From assembly GCF_000023225.1 (NCBI RefSeq), contig NC_013173.1, forward strand, positions 1,242,501 to 1,306,500: a stretch of 64,000 nt of DNA, in the 5' to 3' direction. The notes beneath the pieces were generated by a model that was not told the DNA's origin, did not search any database, and worked only from the letters and a program-made list of their open reading frames with translations. The position numbers and the translations under genes are program-made. Position 1 is the stretch's first letter; every line of letters starts with the position of its first letter. Below are positions 34,987-56,497 of the stretch, piece after piece. The DNA is from Desulfomicrobium baculatum DSM 4028. GTDB taxonomy: Bacteria; Desulfobacterota; Desulfovibrionia; Desulfovibrionales; Desulfomicrobiaceae.

Positions 34987-35122
34987 TACCGGCCATCCAG
35001 CCATCAAATGGATTGAAATCCGTTGGGACGTATGCATGAGGCGAGGCGGATTGATGAACTGATACGGGGCGTTCGGCATGCATGAAACCGACGGCCATCG
35101 AAACATCAAGGGAGAAACAATC

Positions 35123-35746
35123 ATGAGCAACGGCATTCTGAAATCTGAATCTTTGCAGGTATTACCTTTTCTGCCCTATGCGGAAAACGCGTTGGAACCC
35201 GTGATTTCCGCGAAGACGATCGGTTTTCATTACGACAAGCATCACAAGGGCTATGTCGACAACCTGAAAAAGCTGGTGGCGGGGACGCGGTTCGCGGACA
35301 TGACCTTGGAGAAGATCATGAGCGAGACAGCCGGCAAAAGCGACAACATCGCCATCTTCAATAACGCGGCGCAAACATGGAACCACAACTTCTACTGGCA
35401 AAGCCTGAGACCAAGTGGTGGCGCTGAACTGGCCGCCGTGTTGCAGAAGAAGATCGAGGTGTCCTTCGGTTCCCTCGATGCCTGCAAGAAAGAACTGGCG
35501 GCCGCGGCCATGGCACAGTTCGGCAGCGGGTGGGCATGGCTTGTGATGGACAGCGACATGCTCAAGGTCGTCAAGACCGCAAACGCGGAGGTGCCCATGA
35601 CCATGAGCATGAAGCCGCTGTTGACCATCGATGTGTGGGAGCACGCCTATTATCTGGATTACCAGAACCGTCGCGCGGATTATGTCAAGGCCGTGCTGGA
35701 CACGTTGATCAATTGGGAGTTTGCGGCGGAGAATCTCGGCTGCTGA
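35123..35746 (+). CDS. sodB: Iron superoxide dismutase
   Basis: Converts superoxide to peroxide and oxygen in the cytoplasm; 207 residues. Metal ligands are His36 ([11 protein letters not shown]), the His in TWNHNFYW, and Asp and His in [13 protein letters not shown]. The AAQ before TWNH is typical of iron rather than manganese enzymes. No signal peptide. GGGAG precedes the ATG. Together with catalase (53608) it covers both superoxide and peroxide. Confidence 0.93.
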
Positions 35747-35932
35747 GCGTCGAAACGGTCGCGAATTGATCCAGGCAATGGTGGACAGGCACTTGCTGTC
35801 AGGAACTCCCGAGCGTCAAGCTGCCTGTCTTTCAAGTTTGCGACGCGGGCTGAGTCCGTAAGTTATTCTAAATCAACATAAAGCAACGTTGACGAGCGAT
35901 GTGTCGACGCAAATTTTAAAGCGGAGATGTCA

Positions 35933-36487
35933 ATGAAAGCAGTAGATGAACTCAGAAATGAACACCAAGGGATAGAGCTCATGCTAAGGATTCTACAGTC
36001 CATAGCGGGCAGATTTGGAAACAATGAACAGATCGTTAGTGGACAGCTTGATGGTGTCATGGAATTCTTGTCGGTTTTTGTAGACGAGTGCCACCACGGC
36101 AAGGAAGAGGAATTCCTTTTCCCGGCTCTGGAAGCCGTAGGAGTGCCGTGTGAAGGTGGTCCGATAGGGGATTTGTTGGATGATCACGAACAGGGTCGCA
36201 GACTTGTTGCAAGACTTAAGAAATCTGTAGGGCGCTTCACATCAGGGGATACGGAATCTGCAGCAGATGTTAAATTAATAATTGATGAGTATGTAAAACT
36301 GATGATTCAGCATATTGATAAAGAAAACACAAAGATTTTTTCGATTGCAGAATCAAAATTTGATATTGCTAAAGATGATGAGCTTATGGAAAATTTCGAT
36401 AAACTAGAAAAAGAACGCATAGGTTTAGGCAAGCATGATGAATTTCATGCACTTCTGAATAGACTGGCAAGTGAGTATTTGAAGTAG
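35933..36487 (+). CDS. Hemerythrin HHE-domain protein (first of two)
   Basis: 184 residues, cytoplasmic. A four-helix di-iron fold is indicated by RNEHQGIEL (His), DECHHGKEEEFLFP (HxxxE), DDHEQGR and MIQHIDKENTKIF (HxxxE-like). Related proteins sense or bind oxygen or protect iron-sulfur clusters. ATG at 35933 has GCGGAG seven bases upstream, better than the ATG at 35927. The composition is more A+T-rich than its neighbours. It precedes the Fe-S assembly pair. Confidence 0.85.
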   Translation: MKAVDELRNEHQGIELMLRILQSIAGRFGNNEQIVSGQLDGVMEFLSVFVDECHHGKEEEFLFPALEAVGVPCEGGPIGDLLDDHEQGRRLVARLKKSVGRFTSGDTESAADVKLIIDEYVKLMIQHIDKENTKIFSIAESKFDIAKDDELMENFDKLEKERIGLGKHDEFHALLNRLASEYLK

Positions 36488-36635: not shown

Positions 36636-37400
36636 ATGTTGGAATTAAAAAACATTACGTACAGAGTTCCGGAATCAGATGTCGGCGCTCAAGGTGAGGC
36701 CGATCGGACCATTATTCACGATTTGAGTTTTACGTTTGAAGCTGGCCGATTTTACGCCGTTACCGGACCCAACGGGTCGGGCAAGACCACCTTGGCCAAG
36801 CTGATTATGGGGATCAATGAACTCACGTCCGGAAACATAATTTTCAACGGGTCGGACATCAGCAAGCTTCCCATTCATGAACGATCCAACGCCGGCATTG
36901 TTTATGGATTTCAGCATCCGGCCCGATTCAAGGGAACGACTTTTCGGGACCTGTTATCGATTGCCGCCGGGTCTGATGACGAAGAAAAACTCGTTGAGAT
37001 CATTTCACGTGTGGGCGTCTGCTCTCTGGAATTTCTGGACAAGCGTGTGGACAGCAAACTGTCCGGCGGGGAAATCAAAAAAATCGAACTGGCCACGGTT
37101 ATCGCGAAAAATCCAAAAGTGGCCATCTACGATGAACCGGACACCGGCATTGATCTCTGGACCATCGGCCCAATGGTGGAGTTGCTCAAACGTGAACAGA
37201 AAGAAAACAAAACCACCACCATTGTAGTGAGTCACAATAAAGCATTTCTTGAAGCCGCCGACACGCTTTTGTTGATCAGGGACGGCAGAATCGCTTATTC
37301 CGGTGATCTGGCCGGCGCCGTGCCGATACTCGAAGCTTCGAGTGCCTGTACGTTCAATGAATTATGTCAAGGAGTGGATAATGCTCAATGCTATCGATAA
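36636..37400 (+). CDS. sufC: SufC-like ABC ATPase of a minimal Fe-S assembly system (SmsC type)
   Basis: Cytoplasmic ATPase, 254 residues, that powers iron-sulfur cluster assembly on the SufB-type scaffold. Walker A is GPNGSGKTTLAKL, Q-loop region FQHPARFKGTTFRDLL, signature LSGGEIKKIELA and Walker B with IYDEPDTGIDLW, including the SufC-type DEPDTGID. It overlaps the next gene by 20 bases. No SufS, SufE, SufU or SufD gene is beside it. Confidence 0.9.
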   Translation: MLELKNITYRVPESDVGAQGEADRTIIHDLSFTFEAGRFYAVTGPNGSGKTTLAKLIMGINELTSGNIIFNGSDISKLPIHERSNAGIVYGFQHPARFKGTTFRDLLSIAAGSDDEEKLVEIISRVGVCSLEFLDKRVDSKLSGGEIKKIELATVIAKNPKVAIYDEPDTGIDLWTIGPMVELLKREQKENKTTTIVVSHNKAFLEAADTLLLIRDGRIAYSGDLAGAVPILEASSACTFNELCQGVDNAQCYR

Positions 37401-38301
37401 ACAGGTATTAAAGGAAGTTGCGGACCTCGAAGGAATTCCAAAAGGCGCTTATAATATCCGGAAAAACGGTAAGCTTCTGGGTCGCGAGGTCTCCGCCAAT
37501 ATCAACATCGAAACCAACGAAAAAGGCAATGGCATCATCATCGATATCAAGCCGGGCACGGTGAATGAGTCAGTTCATATTCCGGTTATATTATCGCAGG
37601 CAGGTCTTCATGATACGGTCTACAATACCTTTATTGTCGGGGAAGGATCGGATGTGACCATTATTGCCGGATGCGGCATTCACTGCGGGGGCAAGGAATC
37701 CGAAGGCCACTCCGGCATTCATGAATTTCAGATCAAGGCCGACGCAAAAGTCAAATATGTGGAAAAGCATATCGCCATTGGCGACGGCACGGGCCGTCGT
37801 ATTTTAAATCCCACCACAAAAGTTTTTATGGCGGAAAACGCCCAGATGGAAATGGAACTGACCCAACTCGGCGGGGTGGATGAAGCCAAGCGTTTCAATG
37901 AAGCTCACATCGGCGCGGGCAGCGTGCTGCTCATCACGGAACGGGTGATGACCGACGGCGACCAGGTGGCCGAATCCAGAAATGAAATTGAACTGGTCGG
38001 AACCGACAGCAAGACGAACATCGTTTCCCGTTCCGTTATAAAAGGCAATTCCACCCAGGATTTTTACGTCAACCTGACGGCGCTTGCCAAATCCTATGGC
38101 CATATCGAATGCGACGCCATCATCATGGACAATGGCAGTAACCAGACGATTCCGGCTCTGCGCGCGCTGCATCCGGATGCCGAGATGACGCACGAAGCAT
38201 CTATCGGCAAAATTGCCAATGATCAGCTGATGAAGCTTATGACCCTCGGGCTTGACTATGATGCGGCGGTTAATCGGATCATACAGGGATTCTTAAGATA
38301 G
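37381..38301 (+). CDS. SufB/SufD-family scaffold of minimal Fe-S system (SmsB type)
   Basis: 306 residues, much shorter than SufB (about 480), as in two-gene SmsCB systems of anaerobes and archaea. The beta-helix core is visible from VNESVHIPVILSQAGLHDTV to the end, with GHSGIHEFQIKADAKVKYVE, KGNSTQDFYVNLTALAKSYG and AEMTHEASIGKIANDQLMKL. A candidate cysteine is in AGCGIHCGGKESEGHS. AAGGAG precedes the ATG inside the end of sufC, so coupling is expected. It probably builds clusters that are rapidly lost on exposure to oxygen. Confidence 0.88.
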   Translation: MLNAIDKQVLKEVADLEGIPKGAYNIRKNGKLLGREVSANINIETNEKGNGIIIDIKPGTVNESVHIPVILSQAGLHDTVYNTFIVGEGSDVTIIAGCGIHCGGKESEGHSGIHEFQIKADAKVKYVEKHIAIGDGTGRRILNPTTKVFMAENAQMEMELTQLGGVDEAKRFNEAHIGAGSVLLITERVMTDGDQVAESRNEIELVGTDSKTNIVSRSVIKGNSTQDFYVNLTALAKSYGHIECDAIIMDNGSNQTIPALRALHPDAEMTHEASIGKIANDQLMKLMTLGLDYDAAVNRIIQGFLR

Positions 38302-38761: not shown

Positions 38762-40174
38762 ATGTCACTTATTTTTGAACGCATTCACACCGATGGAATT
38801 GCCGAGCTTTCCTATCTGATCGGCGATGATTCCGAGGGCGTGGCGGCAGTGTTCGATCCTCGCCCGGATGTTGATTGTTACCTGCGGCTCGCCCGCGAGA
38901 AGCAGGTATCAATTACGCATATTTTTGAAACGCACATCCATGTCGATTTCGTCAGTGGTTCGCGTGAACTTTGTGCGCGTGCCAAGTCCGCGAAAATATA
39001 CCTCAGTCACGAGGGGGGGGCGCGCTACGGCTTCGAACATGAGGGGATCGCAGATGGAGATGTCTTTGAACTTGGTTCCGCCCTCATTACGGCTCGGCAC
39101 ACGCCCGGTCACTCGCCAGAGCACATGGCGTATCTTCTGTCAGAAAAGGATCGTCCGGGCGCCCCTTGGGGGGTGCTCACCGGGGACTCACTCTTTGTCA
39201 ATTCTGCCGGGCGCTCCGACCTCCTTGGCAGTAGCCGGGCTAAAGAGCTGGCCGAACAGCTGTTCCATACGCTGCACGATTTTTACCTGACGCTTGACGA
39301 TGGCGTCCTTATCTACCCGGCGCATGGTCAAGGGTCGCCATGCGGGGAGGACATCGGCGACCGGCTCAGCAGCACCATTGGTTATGAACGGCGCTTCAAT
39401 GCGTTCCTTCAATTCAACAATGCCACAAGTTTCACCAAGCACACGCTCACCGACGCGGCGCCCATCCCGACCTATTATCCGCTTATGGGGACTCTGAACA
39501 CCAGGGGGCCCACAGTGCTCGGCAACCTCCCGCCAGTGCCCGGACTTCCACCCAAATTCTTTCAGGAAGCCATTGAGAACAGCGACAACGTTCTCATCGA
39601 TACCCGTATGATGCTGGCATTTGGCGGCGGGCATATCAAGGGCGCGCTTAGCATCGGCGGCTTGCCCGTACTTTCCATCTGGGCCGGTTGGTTGCAGGAC
39701 TCCGATCAACCCATCCTGCTCGTCCTCGATTCCGATGACATGCTCGAAACAATCGTCCGCTATTTTGTCCGTACGGGATATACGAAGTTCGCCGGCTACC
39801 TCGTCGGAGGCATGGCTGCATGGAACAACGCCGGACTGCCGCTGGAATCGGTCGGACAAATGACCGTCCACAAAATCAAACGCTCGGGGGAAAAACTGCA
39901 GGTTCTCGATGTACGCGCGCCGGACGAATGGAAAGACGGTCATATCCCGAATGCCCAGCATATTTTCCTGGGCGAATTGCGCGAACAGCTCGGCAAGTTG
40001 GACAAGGACAAACCGACCGCCGTCTATTGCGACAGCGGTTATCGTGCGACCATCGCGACGAGCATTTTGCAGCAGCAAGGGTTCAGCCGCGTCTGCAACA
40101 TTCCCGGAAGCTGGCAAGCATGGAAGAATGCGGGATACCCGGTCGAAAAAGAAATAGAGAAGGAGAGAAAATAA
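38762..40174 (+). CDS. MBL-fold persulfide-dioxygenase-like protein with two rhodanese domains
   Basis: 470 residues. The N-terminal metallo-beta-lactamase domain has ITHIFETHIHVDFVSGS, a ligand-site loop (HxHxDF; usual HxHxDH has His), HTPGHSPEHMAY and LTGDSLFV. The first rhodanese (about 265-365) lacks a catalytic cysteine (LVLDSDDMLE). The second has TAVYCDSGYRAT with the active cysteine. So it likely oxidises or transfers sulfane sulfur, for example glutathione or CoA persulfide to sulfite. It is the first gene of a 12-gene run. Confidence 0.88.
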   Translation: MSLIFERIHTDGIAELSYLIGDDSEGVAAVFDPRPDVDCYLRLAREKQVSITHIFETHIHVDFVSGSRELCARAKSAKIYLSHEGGARYGFEHEGIADGDVFELGSALITARHTPGHSPEHMAYLLSEKDRPGAPWGVLTGDSLFVNSAGRSDLLGSSRAKELAEQLFHTLHDFYLTLDDGVLIYPAHGQGSPCGEDIGDRLSSTIGYERRFNAFLQFNNATSFTKHTLTDAAPIPTYYPLMGTLNTRGPTVLGNLPPVPGLPPKFFQEAIENSDNVLIDTRMMLAFGGGHIKGALSIGGLPVLSIWAGWLQDSDQPILLVLDSDDMLETIVRYFVRTGYTKFAGYLVGGMAAWNNAGLPLESVGQMTVHKIKRSGEKLQVLDVRAPDEWKDGHIPNAQHIFLGELREQLGKLDKDKPTAVYCDSGYRATIATSILQQQGFSRVCNIPGSWQAWKNAGYPVEKEIEKERK

Positions 40175-40176
40175 AC

Positions 40177-40806: not shown

Positions 40807-40813
40807 GGTGCGT

Positions 40814-41407
40814 ATGATTGATCCAGGCAAAGCCGTTAATGAATCGACGAAAAATTCCGCGCCGGCTGTGACCGCAGTTCCCACACTGATTGCCGGCGCG
40901 GTTTTTGGTCTGGTGTTTGGTTTCCTGCTGCAAAAAGGGGGCGTTGGAAAATACAACGTTCTCATCGGCCAACTGCTTCTTCAGGATTGGACCGTCGCGA
41001 AGATCATGCTCACCGCAATTGTGGTCGGCATGATCGGCGTATTCCCGTTACATCACTTCGCCAAGGTGAAGCTGCATATTAAGCCGACCAGGATCGGTGC
41101 CAACATCATCGGTGGGCTTGTGTTCGGCGCTGGTTTTGCCTTGGCTGGCTATTGTCCTGGAACTGTTGCCGCAGCACTGGGGCAGGGAAGCTGGGACGCG
41201 CTCTTCGGCATGGCCGGACTTATCGCCGGCTCGTGGCTGTTTGCCGAACTTTCGGGATGGACCAAACGAACCATCGAGAAATGGGGCAACCTCGGCAAAG
41301 TGCAGCTGTCCGATCTGCTGTCAGTGCCGCGCGGCCATTTTGTGGTCACCTTTGCATTGGCACTCACCGTCATTCTTTTGCTGTTACAACAATTCACCAC
41401 CCGGTGA
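40814..41407 (+). CDS. YeeE/YedE sulfur-transport family protein, second half
   Basis: 197 residues. TM segments around 22-40, 62-80, 94-112, 130-150 and 172-192. Motif GFALAGYCPGTVAAALGQG has the cysteine equivalent to that in the first half. It starts seven bases after the previous stop. The two halves match the two-subunit PmpAB-like arrangement that is common in sulfur-metabolising bacteria. Likely exchanges thiosulfate or a persulfide carrier. Confidence 0.85.
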   Translation: MIDPGKAVNESTKNSAPAVTAVPTLIAGAVFGLVFGFLLQKGGVGKYNVLIGQLLLQDWTVAKIMLTAIVVGMIGVFPLHHFAKVKLHIKPTRIGANIIGGLVFGAGFALAGYCPGTVAAALGQGSWDALFGMAGLIAGSWLFAELSGWTKRTIEKWGNLGKVQLSDLLSVPRGHFVVTFALALTVILLLLQQFTTR

Positions 41408-41506: not shown

Positions 41507-41953
41507 ATGCATCCGTACAGAAATTTTATTTTGATGATCACTGTGTCTGCAACTCTGATGTTTGGATTGATGTACCTCAATACATATCAGTTTAGCCATG
41601 TGTGGTTTAGCCAAACTCGCTTGTTCATGACCTTCATCATGGCTGGTTCCATGGCGCTCGTCATGCTCTTCTTCATGCGCCACATGTACAAAGACAAGAA
41701 GGCCAATATTGCCATTGTTGTTGGAAGCGTGGCCCTTATGGGCTTAGGCTTCTTGTTGGTTCGCAGCCAGGCAACGGTAGGAGATGTCGCGTGGATGAAG
41801 GCGATGATCCCGCATCACTCGATTGCAATACTCACAAGTGAACGCGCCAATATTAGCGACCCTCGTGTAAGAAAACTTGCAGGTGAAATCATTGAAGCCC
41901 AGCGCCGAGAGATTGGGGAGATGGAAGTCCTGATCAGAGATATCGATGATTAG
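41507..41953 (+). CDS. DUF305 family membrane protein
   Basis: 148 residues with three hydrophobic segments (about 7-25, 38-55, 65-83), then a short helical DUF305 tail with MKAMIPHHSIAIL and AQRREIGEMEVLI. DUF305 is a ferritin-like helical motif whose HH pair may bind metal. Its place beside sulfur transport genes suggests a redox or metal role, but function is not known. AGGAGG is seven bases before the ATG. Confidence 0.8.
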   Translation: MHPYRNFILMITVSATLMFGLMYLNTYQFSHVWFSQTRLFMTFIMAGSMALVMLFFMRHMYKDKKANIAIVVGSVALMGLGFLLVRSQATVGDVAWMKAMIPHHSIAILTSERANISDPRVRKLAGEIIEAQRREIGEMEVLIRDIDD

Positions 41954-42046
41954 TCATCGAAAAAAGCAGGTCTTAACCGGCTACATTGTGAGAAGAGCGC
42001 AAAGAATGAAATTGGCGTGCACGATAAATTACAAAGGAGGTGTAGC

Positions 42047-42979
42047 ATGACGCCGAAAAATATGACGGATTCTCCCATTTACGTTGCCTTGAATATGTCC
42101 AAAGTTGTGAACAATGAAGAAAGCTTCGATCTGATGCACAAAGTGGGTCCACGTGTATGTATCACCACTGCCACACATCCGGGTTTTCTTGGTTTTATGG
42201 CTAACATTCAAACAGGAATTTTACCTCTTGCAGGCAGATATGGGGGAGGTAGCACTCACATGGAAAATGCACTGAATCCTGTCCGCAACTATCAGTATAC
42301 CATGTGGAAACATTGGAAAGATCATGACGAATTCCATGAAAAACAATTCAGCAGGATTTTTGAGCTCTGTACCAGCTGCCTGGAGATGGTTGTAGAAGGC
42401 CCATGGGAGCCTGTTTACAGCGTTATTCACGCCAAAATGCCGACTGTTCGATCTATGGGGCAAATCGCCGATCTCGGTAAAGATTTTGTGCAGCAAAAAG
42501 ATTTTATCCGCTTTGCCACCCCTCAGCGCTGCGTTGCCATCGGGGAACATACGGTGGCTCCGGGGAAGGAAAAGGCATTTGAAAAAGGTGCCATCGAAAC
42601 GATGGAAGCCTTGTCGGACGCAACCGGTTTTCTCGGGTATATGATTCTGAAGCAAATTGGGGTCTGTGCATTAGGAAGCTTCATGCTCGACCCGACGTCA
42701 ATGGCAGAAACCCTGCAGACACTCGGAGCCAACCCGCCGAAAAAACCAAGACCGCTCTTTAAAACATTGGATGCCATGCCACGTCCGCCCGAATACCTGA
42801 TTCACAGCGAGTGGGACGCGACGGAAATGGCTCAGATGGGTTTCGCAAAAGTTCTGGTGAACCATGCCATCAGAAAAATACACGATGATGGCGTTATGGC
42901 CCATCTTATCCGCGGTCCATACATCATGTTTTTCCAACCAATGATGGAAGAACCTGGCTGGAGGTCCTTTTTGTCATGA
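42047..42979 (+). CDS. sor: Sulfur oxygenase/reductase (SOR)
   Basis: Cytoplasmic non-haem iron enzyme that disproportionates elemental sulfur with oxygen to sulfite, thiosulfate and sulfide. 310 residues. Compared with the Acidianus enzyme, every key residue is at a fixed +7 offset: Cys38 (Cys31, persulfide), His93 and His97 (His86, His90), Cys108 and Cys111 (Cys101, Cys104), Glu121 (Glu114). Motifs: VGPRVCITTATHPGFLGF, WKDHDEFHEKQF, LCTSCLE, GPWEPVYSVI. A perfect AAAGGAGGTG precedes the ATG. It stands in a sigma-54-driven run with sulfur transporters and a SoxB-like protein. Confidence 0.96.
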   Translation: MTPKNMTDSPIYVALNMSKVVNNEESFDLMHKVGPRVCITTATHPGFLGFMANIQTGILPLAGRYGGGSTHMENALNPVRNYQYTMWKHWKDHDEFHEKQFSRIFELCTSCLEMVVEGPWEPVYSVIHAKMPTVRSMGQIADLGKDFVQQKDFIRFATPQRCVAIGEHTVAPGKEKAFEKGAIETMEALSDATGFLGYMILKQIGVCALGSFMLDPTSMAETLQTLGANPPKKPRPLFKTLDAMPRPPEYLIHSEWDATEMAQMGFAKVLVNHAIRKIHDDGVMAHLIRGPYIMFFQPMMEEPGWRSFLS

Positions 42980-43090
42980 TAGTCGTGGCTGTCGTTCTGT
43001 TGAGCGGTGAGAGGCCCTTAGACCATGACCTGGCAAAAAACCGACCGGCCGGTCATGTCCACCCCGTTAGGCAAACAAAAAGAGAGCGTT

Positions 43091-44860
43091 ATGTATTACA
43101 GTAGTGGCAACTACGAAGCCTTCGCCCGCCCGCGCAAACCCAAGGGCGTAGAGAACAAGACGGCCTGGTTTGTCGGCGCGGGCCTGGCGGCATTGGCGGG
43201 CGCGGCCTTCCTGATCCGCGACGGCCAGATGCCGGGCAACCGGATCACCATCCTGGAGCAGCAACAGTTGCCCGGTGGCGCGCTGGACGGCATCAAGGAG
43301 CCGAACAAGGGCTTCGTGATCCGCGGCGGGCGCGAGATGGAAGAGCACTTCGAGTGCTTGTGGGACCTGTACCGCTCGATCCCGTCGCTGGAGATCGAGG
43401 GCGCCAGCGTGCTCGACGAGTTCTATTGGCTCGACAAGGACGATCCGAACTCCTCTTTGCAGCGCGCCACTGTGAAGCGAGGCGAGGACGCGCATACCGA
43501 CGGCCTGTTCACCCTCAGTGAGCAGGCGCAGAAGGAGATCGTCAAGCTCTTCCTCGCCACCGGCGAGGAGATGGAGAACAAGCGCATAAGCGAGGTATTC
43601 GGCAAGGAATTCCTGGACAGCAATTTCTGGCTGTATTGGCGCACGATGTTTGCTTTCGAGGAGTGGCATTCGGCGCTGGAGATGAAGCGGTACCTGCACC
43701 GTTTCATCCACCAGATCAAAGGCATGCCGGATTTCTCCACGCTGAAGTTCACCAAATTCAACCAGTACGAATCGCTGGTGCTGCCGCTGGTGAAGTGGCT
43801 GCAGGAACATGGTGTGGTGTTCGAGTACGGTACCGAGGTCACCGATGTCGATTTTGACATTGCACCCGGACGTAAACAGGCGACCCGCATCCACTGGCGC
43901 AAGGACGCAGGCGAAGGCGGCGTCGATCTCGGCCCCGACGACCTGGTCTTCATGACCATCGGTTCGCTGACCGAGAACTCCGACAACGGCGACCACCATA
44001 CGCCGGCCAAGCTCAATGAGGGGCCTGCGCCGGCCTGGGATCTGTGGCGTCGCATCGCCGCCAAGGATCCGGCGTTCGGACGCCCGGACGTGTTCGGCGC
44101 GCACATCCCCGAGACCAAATGGGAGTCGGCCACCGTCACTACGCTCGACCAGCGCATCCCGAAGTACATCCAGAAGATCGCCAAGCGTGATCCGTTCAGC
44201 GGCAAGGTGGTGACAGGCGGCATCGTGACCGCGAAGGACTCATCCTGGCTGCTCAGTTGGACGGTGAACCGGCAGCCGCACTTCAAAGAGCAGCCCAAGG
44301 ACCAGATCGTGGTTTGGGTCTACGCGCTGTTCGTCGAGCAACCCGGCGATTACGTGAAGAAGCCCATGCAGGACTGCAGCGGCGAGGAGATCACCCAGGA
44401 ATGGCTCTACCACCTGGGCGTGCCGGTCGAGGACATTCCCGAACTGGCGGCAACCGGTGCGATAACCGTGCCGGTGATGATGCCGTACGTGACCGCCTTC
44501 TTCATGCCGCGCCAGGCCGGTGATCGCCCGGACGTGGTGCCCGAGGGCGCTGTCAACTTCGCCTTCATTGGGCAGTTCGCGGAATCCAGGGAGCGCGACT
44601 GCATCTTCACCACCGAGTATTCCGTACGAACGCCGATGGAGGCTGTCTACACACTGCTCGACGTCGAGCGCGGCGTGCCGGAGGTATTCAACTCCACCTA
44701 CGACATTCGTACGCTCCTGTCCGCGACCGGCCGCCTGCGCGACGGCAAGGAGATCGACATCCCGGGTCCTGCGTTCGTGCGCAATCTGCTGATGAAGAAG
44801 CTCGACAAAACCCAGATCGGCGCACTGTTGCGCGAGTTCGGTATTGTCGGGGACGATTGA
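43091..44860 (+). CDS. ohyA: Oleate hydratase (myosin-cross-reactive-antigen family)
   Basis: FAD enzyme that adds water to cis-9 unsaturated fatty acids, giving 10-hydroxy fatty acids; 589 residues, normal length. Seen: TAWFVGAGLAALAGAAFLI (FAD loop), GGREMEEHFECLWDLYRSIP and FAFEEWHSALEMKRYLHRF. The reaction is thought to detoxify host or membrane fatty acids. It is very G+C-rich: 41 of 60 bases in the line 43201-43260. Such composition and the weak RBS suggest separate acquisition. Flanked by sor and the SoxB-like gene on the same strand. Confidence 0.93.
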   Translation: MYYSSGNYEAFARPRKPKGVENKTAWFVGAGLAALAGAAFLIRDGQMPGNRITILEQQQLPGGALDGIKEPNKGFVIRGGREMEEHFECLWDLYRSIPSLEIEGASVLDEFYWLDKDDPNSSLQRATVKRGEDAHTDGLFTLSEQAQKEIVKLFLATGEEMENKRISEVFGKEFLDSNFWLYWRTMFAFEEWHSALEMKRYLHRFIHQIKGMPDFSTLKFTKFNQYESLVLPLVKWLQEHGVVFEYGTEVTDVDFDIAPGRKQATRIHWRKDAGEGGVDLGPDDLVFMTIGSLTENSDNGDHHTPAKLNEGPAPAWDLWRRIAAKDPAFGRPDVFGAHIPETKWESATVTTLDQRIPKYIQKIAKRDPFSGKVVTGGIVTAKDSSWLLSWTVNRQPHFKEQPKDQIVVWVYALFVEQPGDYVKKPMQDCSGEEITQEWLYHLGVPVEDIPELAATGAITVPVMMPYVTAFFMPRQAGDRPDVVPEGAVNFAFIGQFAESRERDCIFTTEYSVRTPMEAVYTLLDVERGVPEVFNSTYDIRTLLSATGRLRDGKEIDIPGPAFVRNLLMKKLDKTQIGALLREFGIVGDD

Positions 44861-44920: not shown

Positions 44921-46369
44921 ATGGCAAATAGAACGTCTCTCACTGTCATTCAACTCAACGACAGCCATGCCTATTTTGATCTGCACCAGGAGATGTTCTG
45001 GCAGGGAGGTCAGGCAGTCTATCGTCTCGCGGGAGGATATGCCCGCATTGCCACCATCGTTAAGCAGATCCGGGCCGCGAACCAGGAGCGTGTCCTCTTT
45101 TGCGACTGCGGCGATACTCTCCACGGCACGTATCCGGCCCAGAGTACGCAGGGCCAGGCAATGATCCCTGTATTGAATGCATTGGGTATCGACGCGATGA
45201 CGGCCCATTGGGAATTTGCATACGGACCCGTGGCTTTCAAGCAGCTCGCAGCGGAGCTCAGCTACCCGATGCTGGCGATCAATGTTTACGATCAGGCGAC
45301 AAAAGAGCGGTTTTTCCCACCGTACAGCGTGAAGGAAATGGGCGGGTTACGGATTGGTCTGGTGGGCATTGCCTGCAACATTATCGACAAAACCATGCCG
45401 CCTTCCTTCAGCGAAGGACTTGGATTCACCCTTGGGCGAGAAGAGCTCCCTGGCATCATCAATGAGCTGCGCACCAAGGAGAAGGTGGACCTGATCGTCC
45501 TCATCTCCCATCTTGGGTTTGCCCAGGACATGAAGCTGCTCTCCGAGGTGGGGGGAATCGATGTCTGCCTGAGCGGGCATACCCATAACCGCCTCTATAA
45601 ACCGGCTGTGCAGGGGAAAACGCTCGTCATCCAATCGGGCTGCCACGGTTCCTTCCTGGGGCGTCTGGATCTGGAAATTGATGGCGGACGCGTCGTTGAT
45701 TACCGGCACCAACTGATCGAGGTGGAAGCCAAAATAAGCCCCGATCCCGCAGTGGATGATCTCGTTCGCCAAGCCCTCGCCCCGCATCAGGAAGGATTGT
45801 CCATGATTGTGGGTGAAACGGCTACGGCCCTCAACCGAGGGGCCACGCTGGAAACGACGATGGACAATTTCCTGCTGCAGGCGTTGCTGGAAAGCACAGG
45901 GGCGCAATTGGCATTTTCCAACGGCTGGCGCTACGGCGCACCGATAATTCCGGGGGTGGTTACCCTGAATGACCTCTACAATATCATGCCCATGAACCCG
46001 CCGATCTCAACGGTCGAGTTGCTGGGCGAAGAAATTGTCGCGATGCTGGAGGAAAATCTGGAACGGACGTTTGCCCGCGATCCGTACGACCAGATGGGTG
46101 GTTACGTGAAACGCAGCCTTGGTCTGACCGCCTACATCAAGATCGAGAACCCTTTCGAACAGCGCGTGCAGCAAGTTTTTATCGGCGATGAAGAACTGCA
46201 ACCCGGGCGCTATTACCCCACAGCCTTTGTCACCGAACAAGGCGTCGCGGGCAAATACGGTCACAATCGCCAACAGCACACCGAGCGGAGCATAGATGCA
46301 CTGAAGGCATATCTGGCAAGGCACCGTCCGTTGCACGCAGAACTTCGAGGCACGTTCGTCGCGGTGTAA
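44921..46369 (+). CDS. Leaderless SoxB-like metallophosphatase-fold protein
   Basis: 482 residues, without a signal peptide, so cytoplasmic. The dimetal calcineurin-like half has NDSHAYFD, CDCGDTLHG and the unusual AMTAHWEFAYG (residues about 95-104), the SoxB-type HWEF in place of GNHEFD of nucleotidases. It continues ISHLGF, SGHTHN and SGCHGSFLGRLDL. The C-terminal half has SNGWRYGAPIIPG and DPYDQMGGYVKRSLGL, close to SoxB's DPYxQQGGDMVRVGGL. SoxB hydrolyses sulfate from SoxY-bound sulfur, but no soxXYZ is here. It probably acts on another sulfur adduct. Confidence 0.8.
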   Translation: MANRTSLTVIQLNDSHAYFDLHQEMFWQGGQAVYRLAGGYARIATIVKQIRAANQERVLFCDCGDTLHGTYPAQSTQGQAMIPVLNALGIDAMTAHWEFAYGPVAFKQLAAELSYPMLAINVYDQATKERFFPPYSVKEMGGLRIGLVGIACNIIDKTMPPSFSEGLGFTLGREELPGIINELRTKEKVDLIVLISHLGFAQDMKLLSEVGGIDVCLSGHTHNRLYKPAVQGKTLVIQSGCHGSFLGRLDLEIDGGRVVDYRHQLIEVEAKISPDPAVDDLVRQALAPHQEGLSMIVGETATALNRGATLETTMDNFLLQALLESTGAQLAFSNGWRYGAPIIPGVVTLNDLYNIMPMNPPISTVELLGEEIVAMLEENLERTFARDPYDQMGGYVKRSLGLTAYIKIENPFEQRVQQVFIGDEELQPGRYYPTAFVTEQGVAGKYGHNRQQHTERSIDALKAYLARHRPLHAELRGTFVAV

Positions 46370-46370: not shown

Positions 46371-46473
46371 GCAGTCGCGCGATCGCACAATGAATAATAG
46401 TGCGGGATAGGCCCTACGAGCATGGGGGCGCTTCTCGATGGATTCTAAATCAATAATCAAGAGGTGGTTAGCT

Positions 46474-47157
46474 ATGAAAATTCTTATTGTTCTTACTTCT
46501 CATGACCAACTTGGCAACACCGGAAAGAAGACTGGTTTCTGGCTGGAAGAGTTCGTGTCTCCCTATTACGTGTTCAAGGATGCCGGAGCAAAGATCACGC
46601 TGGCCTCGCCCAAGGGGGGCCGACCGCCGCTTGATCCGACCAGCGAACTTCCCGAATATCTGACCGAATCAACCAAACGCTACAGCAAAGACAAGGCTGC
46701 GCAGGCTGAACTTGCTGACACGAAAAAGCTAGCCGATGTGTCCGCGGACGATTTCGACGCAGTCTTCTACCCCGGCGGTCATGGTCCGATGTGGGACCTT
46801 ACCGATGACAGGGTCTCCATTGCGCTGATCGAAGCCTTCCTACAGGCCAACAAGCCGGTCGGTGCGGTGTGTCACGCGCCGGTCTCGTTAGTCAATGTAC
46901 GCGGGAAAGACGGCGAATATCTGGTCAAAAGTAAACGCGTAACCGGTTTCACCAATACAGAAGAAGAAGCAGCAGGCTTGACCGAGGTCGTACCTTTTCT
47001 GTTGGAAGACCGACTTAAAGAACGCGGTGCTCTCTACAGCAAGGGTGCCGACTGGGCGCCGTACGTACAGGTGGATGGCAAGCTTGTGACCGGCCAGAAC
47101 CCGGCCTCCTCGAGACCCGCTGCGGAAGAGGTGCTGAAGCTGCTTCGTTCTGCTTGA
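46474..47157 (+). CDS. DJ-1/PfpI family protein (HchA-like, type 1 GATase fold)
   Basis: 227 residues. Starts MKILIVLTSHDQLGNTGKKT and GFWLEEFVSPYYVFKDAGA, as in HchA-type glyoxalases/deglycases. Nucleophile elbow GAVCHAPVSLV with Cys near 139; GGHGPMWDL and the acidic residue in FWLEE are the remaining parts of the active site. Acts on methylglyoxal or related reactive carbonyls in known cases. A GAGGTGG site precedes the ATG. Ends with a 140-base gap before TauE. Confidence 0.85.
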   Translation: MKILIVLTSHDQLGNTGKKTGFWLEEFVSPYYVFKDAGAKITLASPKGGRPPLDPTSELPEYLTESTKRYSKDKAAQAELADTKKLADVSADDFDAVFYPGGHGPMWDLTDDRVSIALIEAFLQANKPVGAVCHAPVSLVNVRGKDGEYLVKSKRVTGFTNTEEEAAGLTEVVPFLLEDRLKERGALYSKGADWAPYVQVDGKLVTGQNPASSRPAAEEVLKLLRSA

Positions 47158-47296: not shown

Positions 47297-48070
47297 ATGG
47301 ACATCGATTGGATCATAACCTTGTGGTCGGCTCTTGTTGTTCTTGTTGCCACTACAGTGCACGGCATTACCGGTTTCGGCACAGGCCAAATCACGATGGG
47401 AGTGCTTCCGTTCTTCCGCGATGCGGGTTCAGCTTCCATTGTTGTGTCCATTATCGTTTTTATCACGAATGTGCGTGTCTTTTGGAGCGTACGGGACGAG
47501 TTTAATTGGAAGGACTGGCTTATTCCAGTAGCAGGACTGGCAGCTGGCCTTCCCATAGGAATTTATCTGTTTGGAGCCTGGGATGAAGCTCAACTCCGAA
47601 TGGCGATAGGGGTCGTAATGATCATTAGCGCGGTGGTACTTTTGCTGCTGCGTCAGATCAAGTCGATTCGAGAATGGATAAAGGGCACTGGATGGCAGCC
47701 CGGATGGATCAGCGGTGTGCTTGCTGGATTTCTGTCGGGCATCTTTGGTGGTGCCGTATCGATTCCCGGGCCTCCGATGATCATATACGGGGCGTTTTTA
47801 ATGGAGACCGAGTACTGGACTGCGAAGCAGATGAAAGCCATTTTTACTTCGTTCTTTGCGGCCAACCTACTTTACCGTATAGTTGTATTGACCTCCATGG
47901 GAAAGATGACGACAGCGATTGCGGTCGAAGCACTCGCAATTGTTCCGGCAGCTTTTTTTGGAGCTTGGCTTGGCATCAAGCTTTTCACTATCATGCCGCG
48001 AGAGTTATTCCGCTGGTTCATTATCGCCTTTATATTCGTGCTTGGAGTGTTACTGAGCATCGGAATGTAG
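47297..48070 (+). CDS. TauE/SafE family exporter
   Basis: Inner-membrane protein of 257 residues with about eight TM segments; the two-fold family repeat shows as VHGITGFGTGQITMGVLPF and AGFLSGIFGGAVSIPGPPMI. Members export sulfite, sulfoacetate or related anions. Beside SOR, which releases sulfite, export or detoxification of sulfite is a plausible job (inference). AGGAAGGAAATC is a good RBS; the ATG follows. No signal peptide needed. Confidence 0.88.
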   Translation: MDIDWIITLWSALVVLVATTVHGITGFGTGQITMGVLPFFRDAGSASIVVSIIVFITNVRVFWSVRDEFNWKDWLIPVAGLAAGLPIGIYLFGAWDEAQLRMAIGVVMIISAVVLLLLRQIKSIREWIKGTGWQPGWISGVLAGFLSGIFGGAVSIPGPPMIIYGAFLMETEYWTAKQMKAIFTSFFAANLLYRIVVLTSMGKMTTAIAVEALAIVPAAFFGAWLGIKLFTIMPRELFRWFIIAFIFVLGVLLSIGM

Positions 48071-48092: not shown

Positions 48093-49610
48093 ATGGGCGA
48101 TAAAACAAAAACCAGCTTAACGATCTTGCACACCAACGATATGCACGGGCGTTACCGGCCCATCACAATCATTAAAGGCAGTGCCACTTCCCAGACCGGC
48201 GATCCGGGGCGGACCTGGGATGAGTTTGAACGGGAAGGCACGGCCGGTGGTTTTGCCGCCCTGGCCACGGCTGTAAAGCGTATTCGCCTGGAGCGTGGGC
48301 CGGACAATGTCCTGCTCGTGGACGGTGGGGATACCTTCAGCGATGATCTACTGGGAAATTTGACCCGCGGCGAGGCCGTGATCAGGCTCATGAATTCCGT
48401 TGGCTACCAGTTAATGGCTTTGGGCAACCATGACTATGACTTTGGAAGCGAGCGGACTCGCGAACTCGATGAGATCGCGAATTTCCCCATGCGGGCCTCA
48501 AACGTGATTGATGTCAAGACGGGCCAGCCATTTCTGGGAGATCCTACCATTGTCTTCCAGGCGGCAGGCATCCGGGTCGGCTTTCTCACGCTCACGTATC
48601 ACAATACCGGGTTTACAGGGAATCCGAAGAACTACGAAGGATTGGAGTTCAAGGACGGGGTTGAAGCGGTCCGCCAGTACCTGCCTGAACTGCGCGAGCG
48701 CTCTGACCTGGTGGTTGTGCTTTCCCACCTCGGTTCAGCAATGGATCGTGTCCTGGCGCGTGAAGTACCTGAGATGGACATCATCATCGGCGCGCACTCT
48801 CACGACCGCATCTCTAACGAGCGGATCGGGGATGTTACCATCGTGCAGGCCGTTTCAGACAACTCGGTCCTGGGGGAGATCGAGGTCAGCCTCCATGGAA
48901 CGCAGATTACCAAGGTGGAAAGTCGCCTGCATACCCTATGGCTCGAGGAGTTCCCGGAAGATGAAGAGATCGTCCGGCAGGTCGCTGCGTTGCGCGCGCC
49001 ATATCAAGATACCCTGGAAGAGGTCATCGCAATCGCCGCAGAGCCGATTGGCCGACATTACCGTTCGGAAAGCCCCTTTGATAAGCTGGTAGGAGAGATC
49101 ATATGCGCCGAGACCGGGGCTGAAATCGCCTTTATGCCGGGCGTGGGCTACGGGGTGACGCTGCATCCCGGAGCGATCACGCGCGAAGCACTCTACACCC
49201 TTATTCCTCATCCTGCCAAGTTGGTGACGATGCAATTGACCGGTGATCGTGTCCTTGAAATCCTTGAGCAGTGCGCCACCAATCAGGCTCCCGGCGATCC
49301 CCGCCTCATCGTGGGCGGCCTGGTTCAAACTGCCGGTTTACGCTGGATCGTGGATTTTGCTCAACCTTCCGGCAGCCGGGTGTCGGCTGTTTACGTGCGA
49401 AACGAGGCTCTCCTAAAAGACAAAAGTTATATCATCGGCACCAATACCGGTATGGCAGGCGGGCTGCACCGGTATACGGCCTTTACAAAAGGCCAGGATG
49501 AGGTGGTTCACGATCTGCAGGTCAACGAATTGGTTGAAAAGGCTTTTGCCAAAATGGGTACGGTCAGGTCGCCCGCGTTGGGAGATATCACTTTGCGCGG
49601 AAAAGATTAA
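48093..49610 (+). CDS. 5'-nucleotidase-family metallophosphatase (UshA/YfkN-like), leaderless
   Basis: 505 residues and no signal peptide. Metal sites: LTILHTNDMHGRY, LLVDGGDTFSD, MALGNHDYDFGS (the normal nucleotidase GNHxxD) and GAHSHD. The C-terminal substrate half follows (IGRHYRSESPFDKLVGEI, GDPRLIVGGLVQTAGLRW). Most relatives are exported, so a cytoplasmic member is unusual. It is adjacent to the SoxB-like relative, TauE and SLC13, so it may act on a nucleotide or sulfur ester rather than free AMP. Confidence 0.85.
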   Translation: MGDKTKTSLTILHTNDMHGRYRPITIIKGSATSQTGDPGRTWDEFEREGTAGGFAALATAVKRIRLERGPDNVLLVDGGDTFSDDLLGNLTRGEAVIRLMNSVGYQLMALGNHDYDFGSERTRELDEIANFPMRASNVIDVKTGQPFLGDPTIVFQAAGIRVGFLTLTYHNTGFTGNPKNYEGLEFKDGVEAVRQYLPELRERSDLVVVLSHLGSAMDRVLAREVPEMDIIIGAHSHDRISNERIGDVTIVQAVSDNSVLGEIEVSLHGTQITKVESRLHTLWLEEFPEDEEIVRQVAALRAPYQDTLEEVIAIAAEPIGRHYRSESPFDKLVGEIICAETGAEIAFMPGVGYGVTLHPGAITREALYTLIPHPAKLVTMQLTGDRVLEILEQCATNQAPGDPRLIVGGLVQTAGLRWIVDFAQPSGSRVSAVYVRNEALLKDKSYIIGTNTGMAGGLHRYTAFTKGQDEVVHDLQVNELVEKAFAKMGTVRSPALGDITLRGKD

Positions 49611-49655: not shown

Positions 49656-51470
49656 ATGACCCTCGAAATCGGGCTGGTTTTTGCCATACTGGGAATCTCC
49701 ATGCTGTTGTTTATAACCGGCTGGATTCGTGCGGATATCGTCGCGGTATTGGTGCTTGTTTCGCTGGCAGCTACCGGTCTGTTGGAGGTGGAGGAGGTTC
49801 TGAAAGGCTTCAGCAGTGAAGCCGTCATCGCTATCGCCGGTTTGTTGATTCTAAGCGCCGGATTGGTACGCAGCGGGGTGGTCCGCTGGATTGCGGAGCG
49901 TCTGAACGTCATTGCCGGAGGCAGCCGCAAACGGCTGACCGTGATGAGTTCCCTGGTCCCAGGCTTCCTGTCAGGTTTTGTGAGCGATATTGCCACGGTT
50001 TCGTTATTCATTCCGGTGGTCCTGCGGCTGGCACGCAAGAACGATATGCACCGCTCAAAGCTGCTCCTGCCCATCGCCATGGGCGCCCTGGCCGGTGGAA
50101 ACCTGACCATTATCGGGGCCTCGCATAACCTTGTGGTCAACGATTTGCTTCAATCCTCGGGGCAACCCGCACTTGGATTCTTCGAAATCGCGCCGGTAGG
50201 TATTGCCCTGATCATTTCTTTCGCCGTCTACACCCTGGTCCTGGGGCAACGCCTGTTGCCGGGCGACAATGGAAAGAGTGCCGTGGAAAGCCGCGAAGAT
50301 CGCTCCGGTTTAATGCGCACATACCATCTGGAAGATCGTCTCTGGGAGGTCCTGCTCCTGGACGATTCTTCCTGGGTGGGGAAAACGTTGCAAGAAATCG
50401 CGCTCGGTGGTGGGCACGGACTTACGGTCCTGTCTGTTGTGCGCCATGATGAACCGCAGCTTCATAATCGACTGGATTTTGTCCTGCAGAAGCAGGATGT
50501 GCTGCTGGTGAGCGGACGCAGGACAAGGGTCGATAAAATGATACAGGAATATCCCGGACTCAAAGTACTGGGGCATCCCAGCCAACCTGAAAAATTTCCG
50601 TCATCCAGTGGGGAACTGATCGAAGTGGTTGTTCCACCACGCTCAGCGATGGTCGGCAAGACCATGACTGATTTGAATTTTCGCACTGAAACCTGCCTCA
50701 CGGGCGTAGCGATCTGGCGTGCGGATACCCCCATTCGAACCGATGTGGGAACCATTCCCCTGCAAGAAGGAGACGCGCTGCTGCTCTATGGCGCGGGCGA
50801 TCAGACGCGCAGTTACGATCCTAGGCCGGGTTTCTTGTGGCTGCATAAGCCTCGCCCGGAGGAAGCGCCCCTTAGGCTGCGCCACCTGGGCAAGTGGGCC
50901 GCCTTGATTATGGCCGGGGTGGTTGCGTTGGCAGGTTTCGGTCTGCTTCCTATTGCCATTGCGGCGCTGGGAGGCGCAGCTTTGATGGTCCTCATCGGCA
51001 TTCTGCCTTTGCGGCAGTTATATGAGCATGTGGAGTGGCGTACGGTTGTACTGGTCGGGGGTATGTACCCGTTGGGGTTGGCGATGGAGAAAAGCGGCGC
51101 GGCTGGACTGGTTTCCAGCCTAATAGCAGATACTTTGGGTACACTTGGCCCTCATATCACCATGATGGGGATCACGTTGATCGCGCTCCTCCTGACGCAG
51201 GCCCTGCACGGGGCAGCCGTAGCGGTGATCATGACCCCGGTGGCACTCGATACAGCCGGCCTGCTGGGGATCGAACCACAAGCGTTTGCAGTCGCCGTCA
51301 TTGTGGGGGCGGCGGCCACGTACCTGCTGCCGGAAGGCCATCCGGCGCCTCTGATGGTACAGAGTCCCGGGGCATATGAAACCTGGGATTATCTCAAGTT
51401 CGGGGCCGGACTCGTGGTGATTACCCTGGCAATTGTGGCGGCGCTCATTCCTTTGATGTGGCCTTTTTGA
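49656..51470 (+). CDS. SLC13-family anion permease with RCK_C domains
   Basis: Membrane transporter of 604 residues. The N-terminal half has several TM helices (MTLEIGLVFAILGISMLLFI; ADIVAVLVLVSLAATGLLEV; VPGFLSGFVSDIATVSLFIP) and a substrate loop GGNLTIIGASHNLVV. About residues 210-370 hold two RCK_C/TrkA-C-type cytoplasmic domains. The remaining TM helices follow. Sulfate, phosphate or dicarboxylates with Na+ are usual substrates; sulfate fits the neighbours. It is 45 bases after the 5'-nucleotidase gene. Confidence 0.88.
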   Translation: MTLEIGLVFAILGISMLLFITGWIRADIVAVLVLVSLAATGLLEVEEVLKGFSSEAVIAIAGLLILSAGLVRSGVVRWIAERLNVIAGGSRKRLTVMSSLVPGFLSGFVSDIATVSLFIPVVLRLARKNDMHRSKLLLPIAMGALAGGNLTIIGASHNLVVNDLLQSSGQPALGFFEIAPVGIALIISFAVYTLVLGQRLLPGDNGKSAVESREDRSGLMRTYHLEDRLWEVLLLDDSSWVGKTLQEIALGGGHGLTVLSVVRHDEPQLHNRLDFVLQKQDVLLVSGRRTRVDKMIQEYPGLKVLGHPSQPEKFPSSSGELIEVVVPPRSAMVGKTMTDLNFRTETCLTGVAIWRADTPIRTDVGTIPLQEGDALLLYGAGDQTRSYDPRPGFLWLHKPRPEEAPLRLRHLGKWAALIMAGVVALAGFGLLPIAIAALGGAALMVLIGILPLRQLYEHVEWRTVVLVGGMYPLGLAMEKSGAAGLVSSLIADTLGTLGPHITMMGITLIALLLTQALHGAAVAVIMTPVALDTAGLLGIEPQAFAVAVIVGAAATYLLPEGHPAPLMVQSPGAYETWDYLKFGAGLVVITLAIVAALIPLMWPF

Positions 51471-51614: not shown

Positions 51615-52892
51615 ATGGCTGCATTCCGATCGATTCGCTTGTGGCATTCGTGCATATATCTGCTCGTTTTGATTACAGCGGGATGCGGCATGTCGTACCG
51701 TGAAAAGGTTGTTGAACACCCGATTCCTCGTCTTTACGGGACGGAAGACCCGCAATTTTCCCGTACGATGGGGACATTGCTCGGCTCGGACATCCTCGAT
51801 GGCAATCTAGTTGAGGTGCTGTTGAACGGTGACGAGATCTTTCCCGCCATGCTGCAAGCAATCCGTAGCGCCGAAAAAACCATCACCTTCGAAACCTTCA
51901 ACTATTGGTCCGGCTCGATCGGCAGCGATTTTTCGAACGCCTTGGCCGAACGTGCTCGCGCAGGCGTCAAGGTTCATGTCCTGCTGGATTGGATCGGCAG
52001 TTACAAGATGGACGCATCTCAGCTCGAATTGATGGAGCAGGCCGGTGTCGAGGTGAAGAAATTTAATAAACCGCACTGGTATCAGTTAGGCCGATTGAAC
52101 AATCGCACACACCGCAAGCTGCTGGTTGTCGACGGACAGATCGGTTTTACGGGCGGTGTTGGAATCGGAGATCAATGGTCTGGGCATGCGCAAGACCCTG
52201 AACATTGGCGCGATTCGCACTATCGGTTCCAAGGCCCCGTGGTGGGGCAGATGCAAGCTGTCTTTATGGACAACTGGATCAAAGTCAGCGGTGATGTACT
52301 GCATGGCCCCGCGTACTTCCCTGCGTTGCAGCCCGTCGGCTCCGGCAAGGCGCACGTGTTCAGCAGCTCTCCGTCAGGGGGAAGCGAAAGCATGCGCCTC
52401 ATGTACCTGCTTGCAATCACCGCCGCGAGCCGCACCATTCACCTTTCCACTCCGTACTTCATTCCCGACGCATTGACGATCCAAACACTCACCGATGCCG
52501 CAAAGCGCGGCGTGACCGTCCAGATCATAACAGTCGGCGACCACGCAGACAGTGAGACGGTAAGGCGTGCATCCCGGGCACGCTGGGGCGACTTACTCGA
52601 AGCGGGGATTGAAATACATGAATATCAGCCGACCCTGTACCACTGCAAGGTGATGATCGTCGATGGGCTGTGGACATCGGTGGGCTCGACGAATTTTGAC
52701 CCCCGTTCCTTCAGCCTGAATCACGAGGCGAATGTGAACTATTACGACCGCGATTTTGCCCTGCGTCTGATCGAAATTTTTCAAGAAGACCTGGCCCGTT
52801 CGCGACAGGTAACATTCCAGGAGTGGAAGGACCGGCCGCTTGTCGAAAAAATCTGGGAACATGCAGCATCGCTTCTCGGTTCGCAGTTGTGA
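51615..52892 (+). CDS. Lipoprotein phospholipase D/cardiolipin synthase-like protein
   Basis: 425 residues. A lipoprotein signal ends LLVLITAGC with Cys24. The two HKD motifs are THRKLLVVDGQIGFTGG (near 165) and YHCKVMIVDGLWTSVGSTNF (near 341), each followed by Gly-rich support, as in cardiolipin synthases. The lipid anchor in place of TM helices is unlike ClsA. It could make cardiolipin or cleave phospholipid in the periplasm. Last gene of the sulfur run. AAGGAG is well placed. Confidence 0.9.
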   Translation: MAAFRSIRLWHSCIYLLVLITAGCGMSYREKVVEHPIPRLYGTEDPQFSRTMGTLLGSDILDGNLVEVLLNGDEIFPAMLQAIRSAEKTITFETFNYWSGSIGSDFSNALAERARAGVKVHVLLDWIGSYKMDASQLELMEQAGVEVKKFNKPHWYQLGRLNNRTHRKLLVVDGQIGFTGGVGIGDQWSGHAQDPEHWRDSHYRFQGPVVGQMQAVFMDNWIKVSGDVLHGPAYFPALQPVGSGKAHVFSSSPSGGSESMRLMYLLAITAASRTIHLSTPYFIPDALTIQTLTDAAKRGVTVQIITVGDHADSETVRRASRARWGDLLEAGIEIHEYQPTLYHCKVMIVDGLWTSVGSTNFDPRSFSLNHEANVNYYDRDFALRLIEIFQEDLARSRQVTFQEWKDRPLVEKIWEHAASLLGSQL

Positions 52893-53264: not shown

Positions 53265-53534
53265 ATGAAATCTAGCATCAGGGGCAAGACGGAAGGAATG
53301 CTGCACGAGGGAGAGGGCAGTATTAATGATGTGACCGGAAAGATCACCGGTCAAAAGCTGGAGGCCAATGATAGCTCCGAAATTCCAGCATGCATTTGGG
53401 CAGCGCCACCAGAGAAAAAGATGATCGGTATGCGTCATTCGGAAGAAGGGAAGATCGGGTGGATTTTACTTTGGGTCCTGGGGATCCCGCTTCCGATCCT
53501 TGTGGTGCTGTATCTCCTGCGCGGGTGCACTTGA
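53265..53534 (+). CDS. CsbD-like protein joined to a short membrane peptide
   Basis: 89 residues. N-terminal part (1-35) is CsbD-like: [20 protein letters not shown], a stress-response helical motif. The C-terminal part has [20 protein letters not shown] and one TM helix ending LRGCT. The second part resembles a separate short membrane peptide in other bacteria, so this may be a fusion. GGAGG lies seven bases before the ATG. First gene of the catalase run; its function is unknown. Confidence 0.75.
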
Positions 53535-53607
53535 GAAGGATTTTTTGCGGGAAATACCCGCTGACGACAATGGTCGGCAGTCCGGCATTACACACTGGAG
53601 ACAGATC

Positions 53608-56382: not shown

Positions 56383-56391
56383 TCTAGAAGT

Positions 56392-56426
56392 GGGGCCGGA
56401 TTTTTCATTCATGCGGCCCCGTTTTT
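56392..56426 (+). terminator. Rho-independent terminator after the stress protein
   Basis: GGGGCCG (56392-56398) pairs with CGGCCCC (56414-56420) around a 15-base loop, followed by five T residues. Confidence 0.9.
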
Positions 56427-56497
56427 GTTCGAGTCACATTTTCTTGTGCGAACACCGACTCAATATACATTCACACAACAACGAAGAAGAAGATATT

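Follow-up and report, generated by a model that had tools for sequence, protein, structure and literature searches.

Sulfur oxygenase reductase (SOR) is termed a cytoplasmic enzyme in the relevant passages of two papers (PMC12345210, PMC10853474), the first of which states that SOR itself does not allow energy conservation. For a characterized SOR of a mesophile, a temperature optimum near 80 °C is given (PMC6060420). The presence of a sor gene in Desulfomicrobium baculatum, a sulfate reducer that is described as strictly anaerobic and whose strain X, according to PMC3035215, does not use sulfur as an electron acceptor, is already on record. This gene served as a bacterial SOR reference in a SOR tree of 2015 (PMC5023260), and a paper of 2018 cited it, called the role of SOR in strict anaerobes unclear, and reported a sor gene also in a Desulfomicrobium MAG from borehole OL-KR46, for which, in the pertinent part of that paper, the proteome gave no evidence of expression (PMC6137086). 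Given this use in 2015 and discussion in 2018, the finding of the gene is not new, and the occurrence of SOR outside archaea, which an earlier sequence-only reading presented as news, is not news either: of the 68 SOR loci in the genome collection analyzed here, spread over many bacterial genera, only 3 are archaeal by title. What is new is a branch of SORs with Tat signals, which lies outside the window (the whole stretch of 64,000 nucleotides that was analyzed), and the apparently mobile stress setting of the D. baculatum gene.

The SOR gene and its product

The genome of D. baculatum is a single contig of 3,942,657 bases with a GC content of 58.7%. The SOR gene (42047..42979, + strand; 48% GC) is an intact frame of 310 amino acids, with the Shine-Dalgarno-like AAAGGAGG directly 5' of its ATG at 42047. 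The Pfam SOR model PF07682 matches residues 11-306 over profile positions 2-300 of 300 (513 bits, E 2e-154), and a PDB search yielded 11 distinct sequences at E <= 1, every one named sulfur oxygenase (/) reductase, with a best E of 3e-96; the intact SOR frame that had been claimed is thus confirmed. PDB 9rdn is a distant SOR (E 2e-45 against the window SOR). Promoter and terminator scans gave no clear excess over shuffled sequences (3 against a mean of 5.4, and 12 against 10.2, sd 3.8, respectively).

The alignment with the SOR of Acidianus tengchongensis (3bxv) starts at query residue 12 and chain residue 5 and is gapless up to about query residue 139, so that the constant +7 offset reported for six key residues is valid across the active-site region. 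Five of these residues (C38, H93, H97, C111 and E121) do not vary among the 38 SORs aligned, the window's included, and C108 is kept in 37 of the 38. By comparison with the A. ambivalens SOR and its numbering, H93, H97 and E121 are presumably the iron ligands, C38 the catalytic cysteine, and C108 and C111 a cysteine pair, following the roles assigned in studied SORs. An AlphaFold model made with the 38-row alignment (pLDDT 89.1, pTM 0.88) superimposes on nine SOR structures with Z of 38.8-40.2 (300-302 residues at 2.1-2.2 Å); for the next fold, Z drops to 20.6. The prediction accordingly agrees with the claim of an intact fold. Sequence and model agree that this is a genuine SOR whose active site is intact. 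The window SOR misses the cut-off of 400 of the NCBIfam SOR equivalog NF047630 (319.8 bits), as do four of the six other SORs scored, those of Halothiobacillus neapolitanus (290.6), Acidithiobacillus (294.1), Thioalkalivibrio (280.9) and locus L030 (307.1), with the cut-off reached by 3bxv (609.6) and Sulfoacidibacillus L050 (424.1). Because the proteobacterial SORs tried fall outside this cut-off, the model was not taken as defining SOR.

The gene is under strong purifying selection. Comparison with the SOR genes of loci L013 (dN 0.029, dS 0.319; ratio about 0.09), L014 (0.046, 0.656), L016 (0.058, 0.487) and L015 (0.078, 0.610) gives dN/dS ratios of 0.07-0.13, whereas dS is saturated in the comparison with L018. 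These ratios, along with the intact active site, rule out a pseudogene or decayed gene.

The surrounding gene set

The genes around the SOR gene, all on the + strand, fall into a left and a right part. The left part encodes an Fe/Mn superoxide dismutase (SOD; 35078..35746; PF02777, 127 bits), a hemerythrin-domain protein (35927..36487; PF01814, 77 bits), a SufC-like ATPase (36636..37400; PF00005, 97 bits) beside a SufB/D-core protein (37303..38301 in the frame as scanned, the true start being probably a later ATG; PF01458, 86 bits), a CstB-like fusion of MBL, rhodanese and rhodanese domains, a candidate persulfide dioxygenase-sulfurtransferase (38762..40174; Pfam Lactamase_B and, in two stretches, Rhodanese), two YeeE/YedE half-transporters (Sulf_transp, PF04143; 40159..40806 with 80 bits, and 40817..41407 with 62 bits), and a DUF305 protein (41507..41953; PF03713, 39 bits). 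In the right part, a gene for an MCRA family protein (43025..44860; PF06100, 730 bits), presumably oleate hydratase-like, lies between the SOR and the SoxB-like gene in the window as well as in L013. The products that follow are the SoxB-like metallophosphatase (44921..46369; TIGR04486, 342.7 bits, cut-off 550; PDB SoxB 2wdc, E 8e-52), a DJ-1/PfpI family protein (46438..47157; PF01965, 68 bits), a TauE/SafE family protein, a possible sulfite exporter (47297..48070; PF01925, 92 bits), a 5'-nucleotidase/SoxB superfamily protein (48093..49610; TIGR04486, 225 bits, again with the cut-off of 550), a DASS-type anion transporter (49656..51470; TIGR00785, 115 bits, below the cut-off of 198.6), a PLD-type protein so labeled from reading its sequence (51615..52892), a long-type catalase (53500..55722; PF00199, 586 bits; PF18011, 38 bits) and a second hemerythrin-domain protein (56390..56944; PF01814, 58 bits), with an 84% identical protein on the SOR contig of L014.

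The sulfur genes that the sequence-only reading placed beside SOR are there as described, with two adjustments. In the MBL/rhodanese protein, a single MBL domain is joined to two rhodanese domains, in the order of the CstB type; the PDB matches of this protein are 3tp9 (E 2e-80), 3r2u, which we take to be CstB (E 5e-61), and ETHE1 4chl (E 2e-14), and the Blh model NF040641 matches it weakly (18 bits, cut-off 625). The term SoxB-like stands as a likeness but not as SoxB proper, given that both candidate proteins (343 and 225 bits) are below the TIGR04486 cut-off and that the match of the protein at 44921-46369 starts only at profile position 111. On the first half-transporter (40159-40806), the TsuA models scored far below cut-off. 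That these neighbors would form a cytoplasmic sulfur route, as had been proposed, is plausible.

Some of the sulfur genes recur beside SOR elsewhere. One or more of four partners (a CstB-like gene, a YeeE pair, a SoxB-like gene, a DASS gene) are found at 8 of the 21 clade loci examined besides the window (L013, L014, L015, L016 as a remnant, L017, L021, L028 and L029), and such partners are absent at the other 13 within the DNA examined around each. In L015 (1792-4172) and L028 (1-2180), a SoxB-like frame begins <=4 bases 3' of SOR, and the SoxB-like protein is possibly a cytoplasmic partner of the enzyme. Stress-type neighbors include ferritin-like and SufC/SufB-D genes (L030), MsrB (L022, with a relative of it in L024), a di-haem peroxidase (L016), a universal stress protein (L082) and hemerythrin (L014); other neighbors have no stress link, namely fumarase, phosphorylase, formate-THF ligase, cation efflux, CorA and glucanotransferase. 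The Pfam scans at these other loci covered 30 chosen genes, called by a crude choice of the longest frame, and the oxygen-stress setting is suggestive only.

Several observations bear on mobility. Of the 16 genomes of the genus, 2 (that of D. baculatum counted) have a 14-kb core (38747-52897) almost in full, G421 has two fragments of it, and three further genus genomes have matches of 53-103 bases only. Pieces of the block occur elsewhere in reshuffled form, with 79-89% DNA identity. The CstB-YeeE stretch and SOR are both found in L014 (labeled Desulfuromonadaceae), as is the second hemerythrin, there accompanied by a DAO-Rieske gene, but the order is not that of the window. In L016, SOR is flanked by remnants of SOD, catalase and SoxB-like genes, and L013 retains a catalase remnant of 34 residues. 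In L009 (1501-2576), from another family, a piece of SOR with one in-frame stop, a SoxB-like end and the PLD-type gene form a collapsed string, at 84-89% DNA identity (for the PLD-type protein, 84% of amino acids over 231 of 425 residues, and 88% of DNA over 704 bases); this string reads as a decayed copy of the window gene set. The sole mobile-element gene scanned in the window is a transposase of the rve type (26135-26989), which we take to be of the IS3 type; next to it, to the left of the SOR block, the stretch 23600-26100 has a poor coding signal. The window contains neither a tRNA nor an Rfam match at the gathering score, so an attachment site was not found. Taken together, the surroundings of SOR resemble a mobile set of oxygen-stress genes, of which no description was found in the literature searched.

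Distribution of SORs and the Tat-signal branch

SOR is present in 2 of the 22 family genomes (that of D. baculatum counted), both of the same genus, and is therefore an accessory gene. It was detected in 10 of 395 genomes sampled across the phylum (9 of these above cut-off) and in 5 of 85 genomes from the class of G273, a class that excludes the D. baculatum genome. Among the SOR loci of the collection, those titled Anaerolineaceae, Sumerlaeota and Halanaerobiaceae may come from mixed bins. L079 is a distant SOR relative in a MAG, with 32% identity.

A tree of 66 rows was built from 62 of the 68 collection loci, L004, the window SOR and two PDB sequences, with the root set on archaeal rows and with six partial loci kept out (L028, L029, L073, L078, L079 and L080). 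The window SOR belongs to a clade of 18 rows (100/100), mostly MAGs labeled Deltaproteobacteria or Desulfobacteria, with a branch length of 0.78 changes per column. The neighbor group of this clade (39 rows) is mostly proteobacterial, with a few rows labeled Desulfobacca, Smithella and Deltaproteobacteria (L036, L075 and L069); the window SOR and the proteobacterial SORs share a starred 57-row group, with Bacillota and archaea further out. The tree that had been suggested as a check thus groups the window SOR inside the bacterial SORs, apart from the four archaeal rows, which rules out a recent transfer from archaea; as the root was set on archaeal rows, the direction of any ancient transfer is not readable from it. 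Among the 22 genomes with the window-type SOR, 11 have dsrA above cut-off and 7 have cytochrome bd.

In eight relatives (L004, L017, L018, L020, L025, L027, L030 and L078), the SOR domain is preceded by a predicted Tat signal; the motif search found it in seven of the 68 collection loci, and the eighth, L004, came from the phylum-wide search. In the extra N-terminus, an RRxF core is combined with a hydrophobic run and with A-x-A-like sites, and all eight pass the Tat model TIGR01409 with 17.3-26.7 bits (cut-off 16.7), as scored on N-terminal stretches of 48-58 amino acids whose start codons were chosen by the analyst. The same model finds nothing in the L019 SOR or in the window SOR. L078 is a partial gene with 69 residues of the SOR domain and lies outside the tree; it was assigned to the clade on account of 84% identity. 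The other seven Tat SORs and L019 form one eight-row group (81/93, with an open fork) that implies 2 changes, possibly a single gain of the signal and one loss.

An artefact of start-codon choice is ruled out for L018 and L004, whose signal stretch shows protein-like evolution in its frame (dN 0.096, dS 0.512, compared with 0.199 and 0.127 one frame on; the comparison covers 44 and 40 codons, which are small numbers). A clear ribosome-binding-like sequence stands 5' of the Tat start in L018, L004, L020, L025 and L078, and a weaker one or none in L017, L027 and L030. Genes of the TatA/B type are found in all eight genomes and TatC in six, those of L017 and L020 being the two where it was not found; since the L020 genome (G482) is a single contig of ~90% completeness, the absence there counts against export. 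dsrA is above cut-off in six of the eight genomes, and, within the DNA examined, a YeeE pair is near only one of the Tat SORs (L017).

Some close relatives appear to export SOR out of the cytoplasm, and an exported SOR was not described in the literature searched, which took in few subscription papers. The fuller proposal is that sulfate reducers would export enzymes of this branch, folded and iron-loaded, to the periplasm, to consume O2 and zero-valent sulfur before these reach the cytoplasm, with the window SOR as the cytoplasmic sister form on the mobile oxygen-stress set; its chances appear evenly balanced.

Role of the enzyme and comparison with known systems

The host had been taken for a probable sulfate-reducer relative, and its dsrA (605 bits) supports a sulfate reducer; the genome also has cytochrome bd. 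The best explanation of the locus, to which we give a probability of about 0.6, is a functional cytoplasmic mononuclear-iron SOR that was most likely acquired with a set of oxygen-stress and zero-valent-sulfur genes spreading by horizontal transfer and that would relieve oxygen and sulfur stress. Its most likely role, inferred from context, is the cytoplasmic burning of zero-valent sulfur with O2. Oxygen entering the cell would oxidize sulfide to polysulfide or S0, which would be bound by SOR at Cys38, beside the iron held by His93, His97 and Glu121; with O2 and no outside reductant, the enzyme would convert this sulfur to sulfite and sulfide, with thiosulfate arising by follow-on chemistry. 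The CstB-like protein may do likewise for persulfides, the YeeE pair, TauE and the SoxB-like protein may move or process the products, and sulfite would either pass to DsrAB or be exported through TauE. Because sulfite can feed DsrAB in a sulfate reducer, the reaction would both remove oxygen and return sulfur to the respiratory chain. The Tat form would perform the same chemistry outside the cytoplasm.

The identity of the enzyme and the selection on its gene, the patchy spread, the GC content, the oxygen-stress and sulfur neighbors, and the cytochrome bd and dsrA of the genome speak for the stress-relief explanation; from these we infer the substrate, the oxygen-stress role, the fate of the products and the route of transfer. 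Against it stand the description of the species as a strict anaerobe and of strain X as not using sulfur as acceptor (in the part of PMC3035215 cited above), the lack of evidence for sor expression in the MAG proteome of 2018 (likewise as far as the cited part of PMC6137086 goes), the neighbors unrelated to stress, the 13 of 21 loci free of sulfur partners, and the NF047630 score (320 against 400). The ~80 °C optimum of the mesophile SOR (PMC6060420) also counts against it, and activity of the window SOR at 30 °C may for that reason be low.

Other roles have to be weighed against stress relief. Sulfur oxidation for energy under microaerobic conditions, as acidophilic sulfur oxidizers perform it, with sulfite going to AprAB/Sat to drive substrate-level phosphorylation, would fit the co-occurrence of dsrA and cytochrome bd and the sulfur transport genes beside SOR, but is unlikely in surroundings rich in stress genes, in an organism whose strain X is termed a strict anaerobe (PMC3035215), and for an enzyme by which, as PMC12345210 states, energy is not conserved. 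Just as improbable, we believe, is that a mobile block carries SOR along as a passenger, of no present benefit to the host. The patchy spread (2/22 family genomes for SOR and 2/16 genus genomes for the near-complete block), the broken copy in L009 and the proteome in which the cited part of PMC6137086 saw no sor expression would all be expected of a passenger; dN/dS of 0.07-0.13 against L013, L014, L015 and L016 and an intact active site would not.

The separate clade with its long branch (0.78 changes per column) and the missed NF047630 cut-off could also point to a SOR homolog with a different substrate, for instance, an organic persulfide. Considering that all six residues are kept, that the predicted fold matches over the whole length and that the solved H. 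neapolitanus SOR scores even lower on NF047630 (291 bits), this is the least likely of the alternatives, and stress relief through zero-valent sulfur remains the preferred explanation.

Why a strict anaerobe keeps an O2-dependent sulfur enzyme is a question already named in print (PMC6137086, in the part cited), and the gene set suggests a testable answer, relief from oxygen and polysulfide with sulfite handed back to sulfate respiration. With SOR termed cytoplasmic in the cited passages of PMC12345210 and PMC10853474, a Tat-exported SOR in bacteria with dsrA would put SOR chemistry in a new location and, if true, would bear on the survival of sulfate reducers at oxic-anoxic borders.

Among the known enzymes, the H. 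neapolitanus SOR (6qpa) resembles the window SOR in predicted fold (Z 40.2, 2.2 Å over 300 residues), shares 49% identity with it and has the same active-site residues, whereas the separate 18-row clade sets the window SOR apart from proteobacterial SORs. The Acidianus SORs (2cb2, 3bxv), presumably from archaeal sulfur oxidizers, are similarly close in fold (Z ~39), with the active-site residues conserved in 3bxv, but are only 41-42% identical. Within the genus, a close system is the Desulfomicrobium MAG from Olkiluoto OL-KR46 groundwater, for which sor is also reported in the relevant part of PMC6137086. L013, whose title bears KR46, is of the same genus and encodes a SOR 94% identical to that of the window; it probably belongs to the same MAG group and differs from the window in having no hemerythrin-SufCB stretch between the SOD and CstB-like genes. 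With the staphylococcal Cst sulfide-detoxification system, the window has in common an MBL-rhodanese-rhodanese fusion near TauE-type and YeeE-type membrane proteins, to which it adds SOR and the SoxB-like genes.
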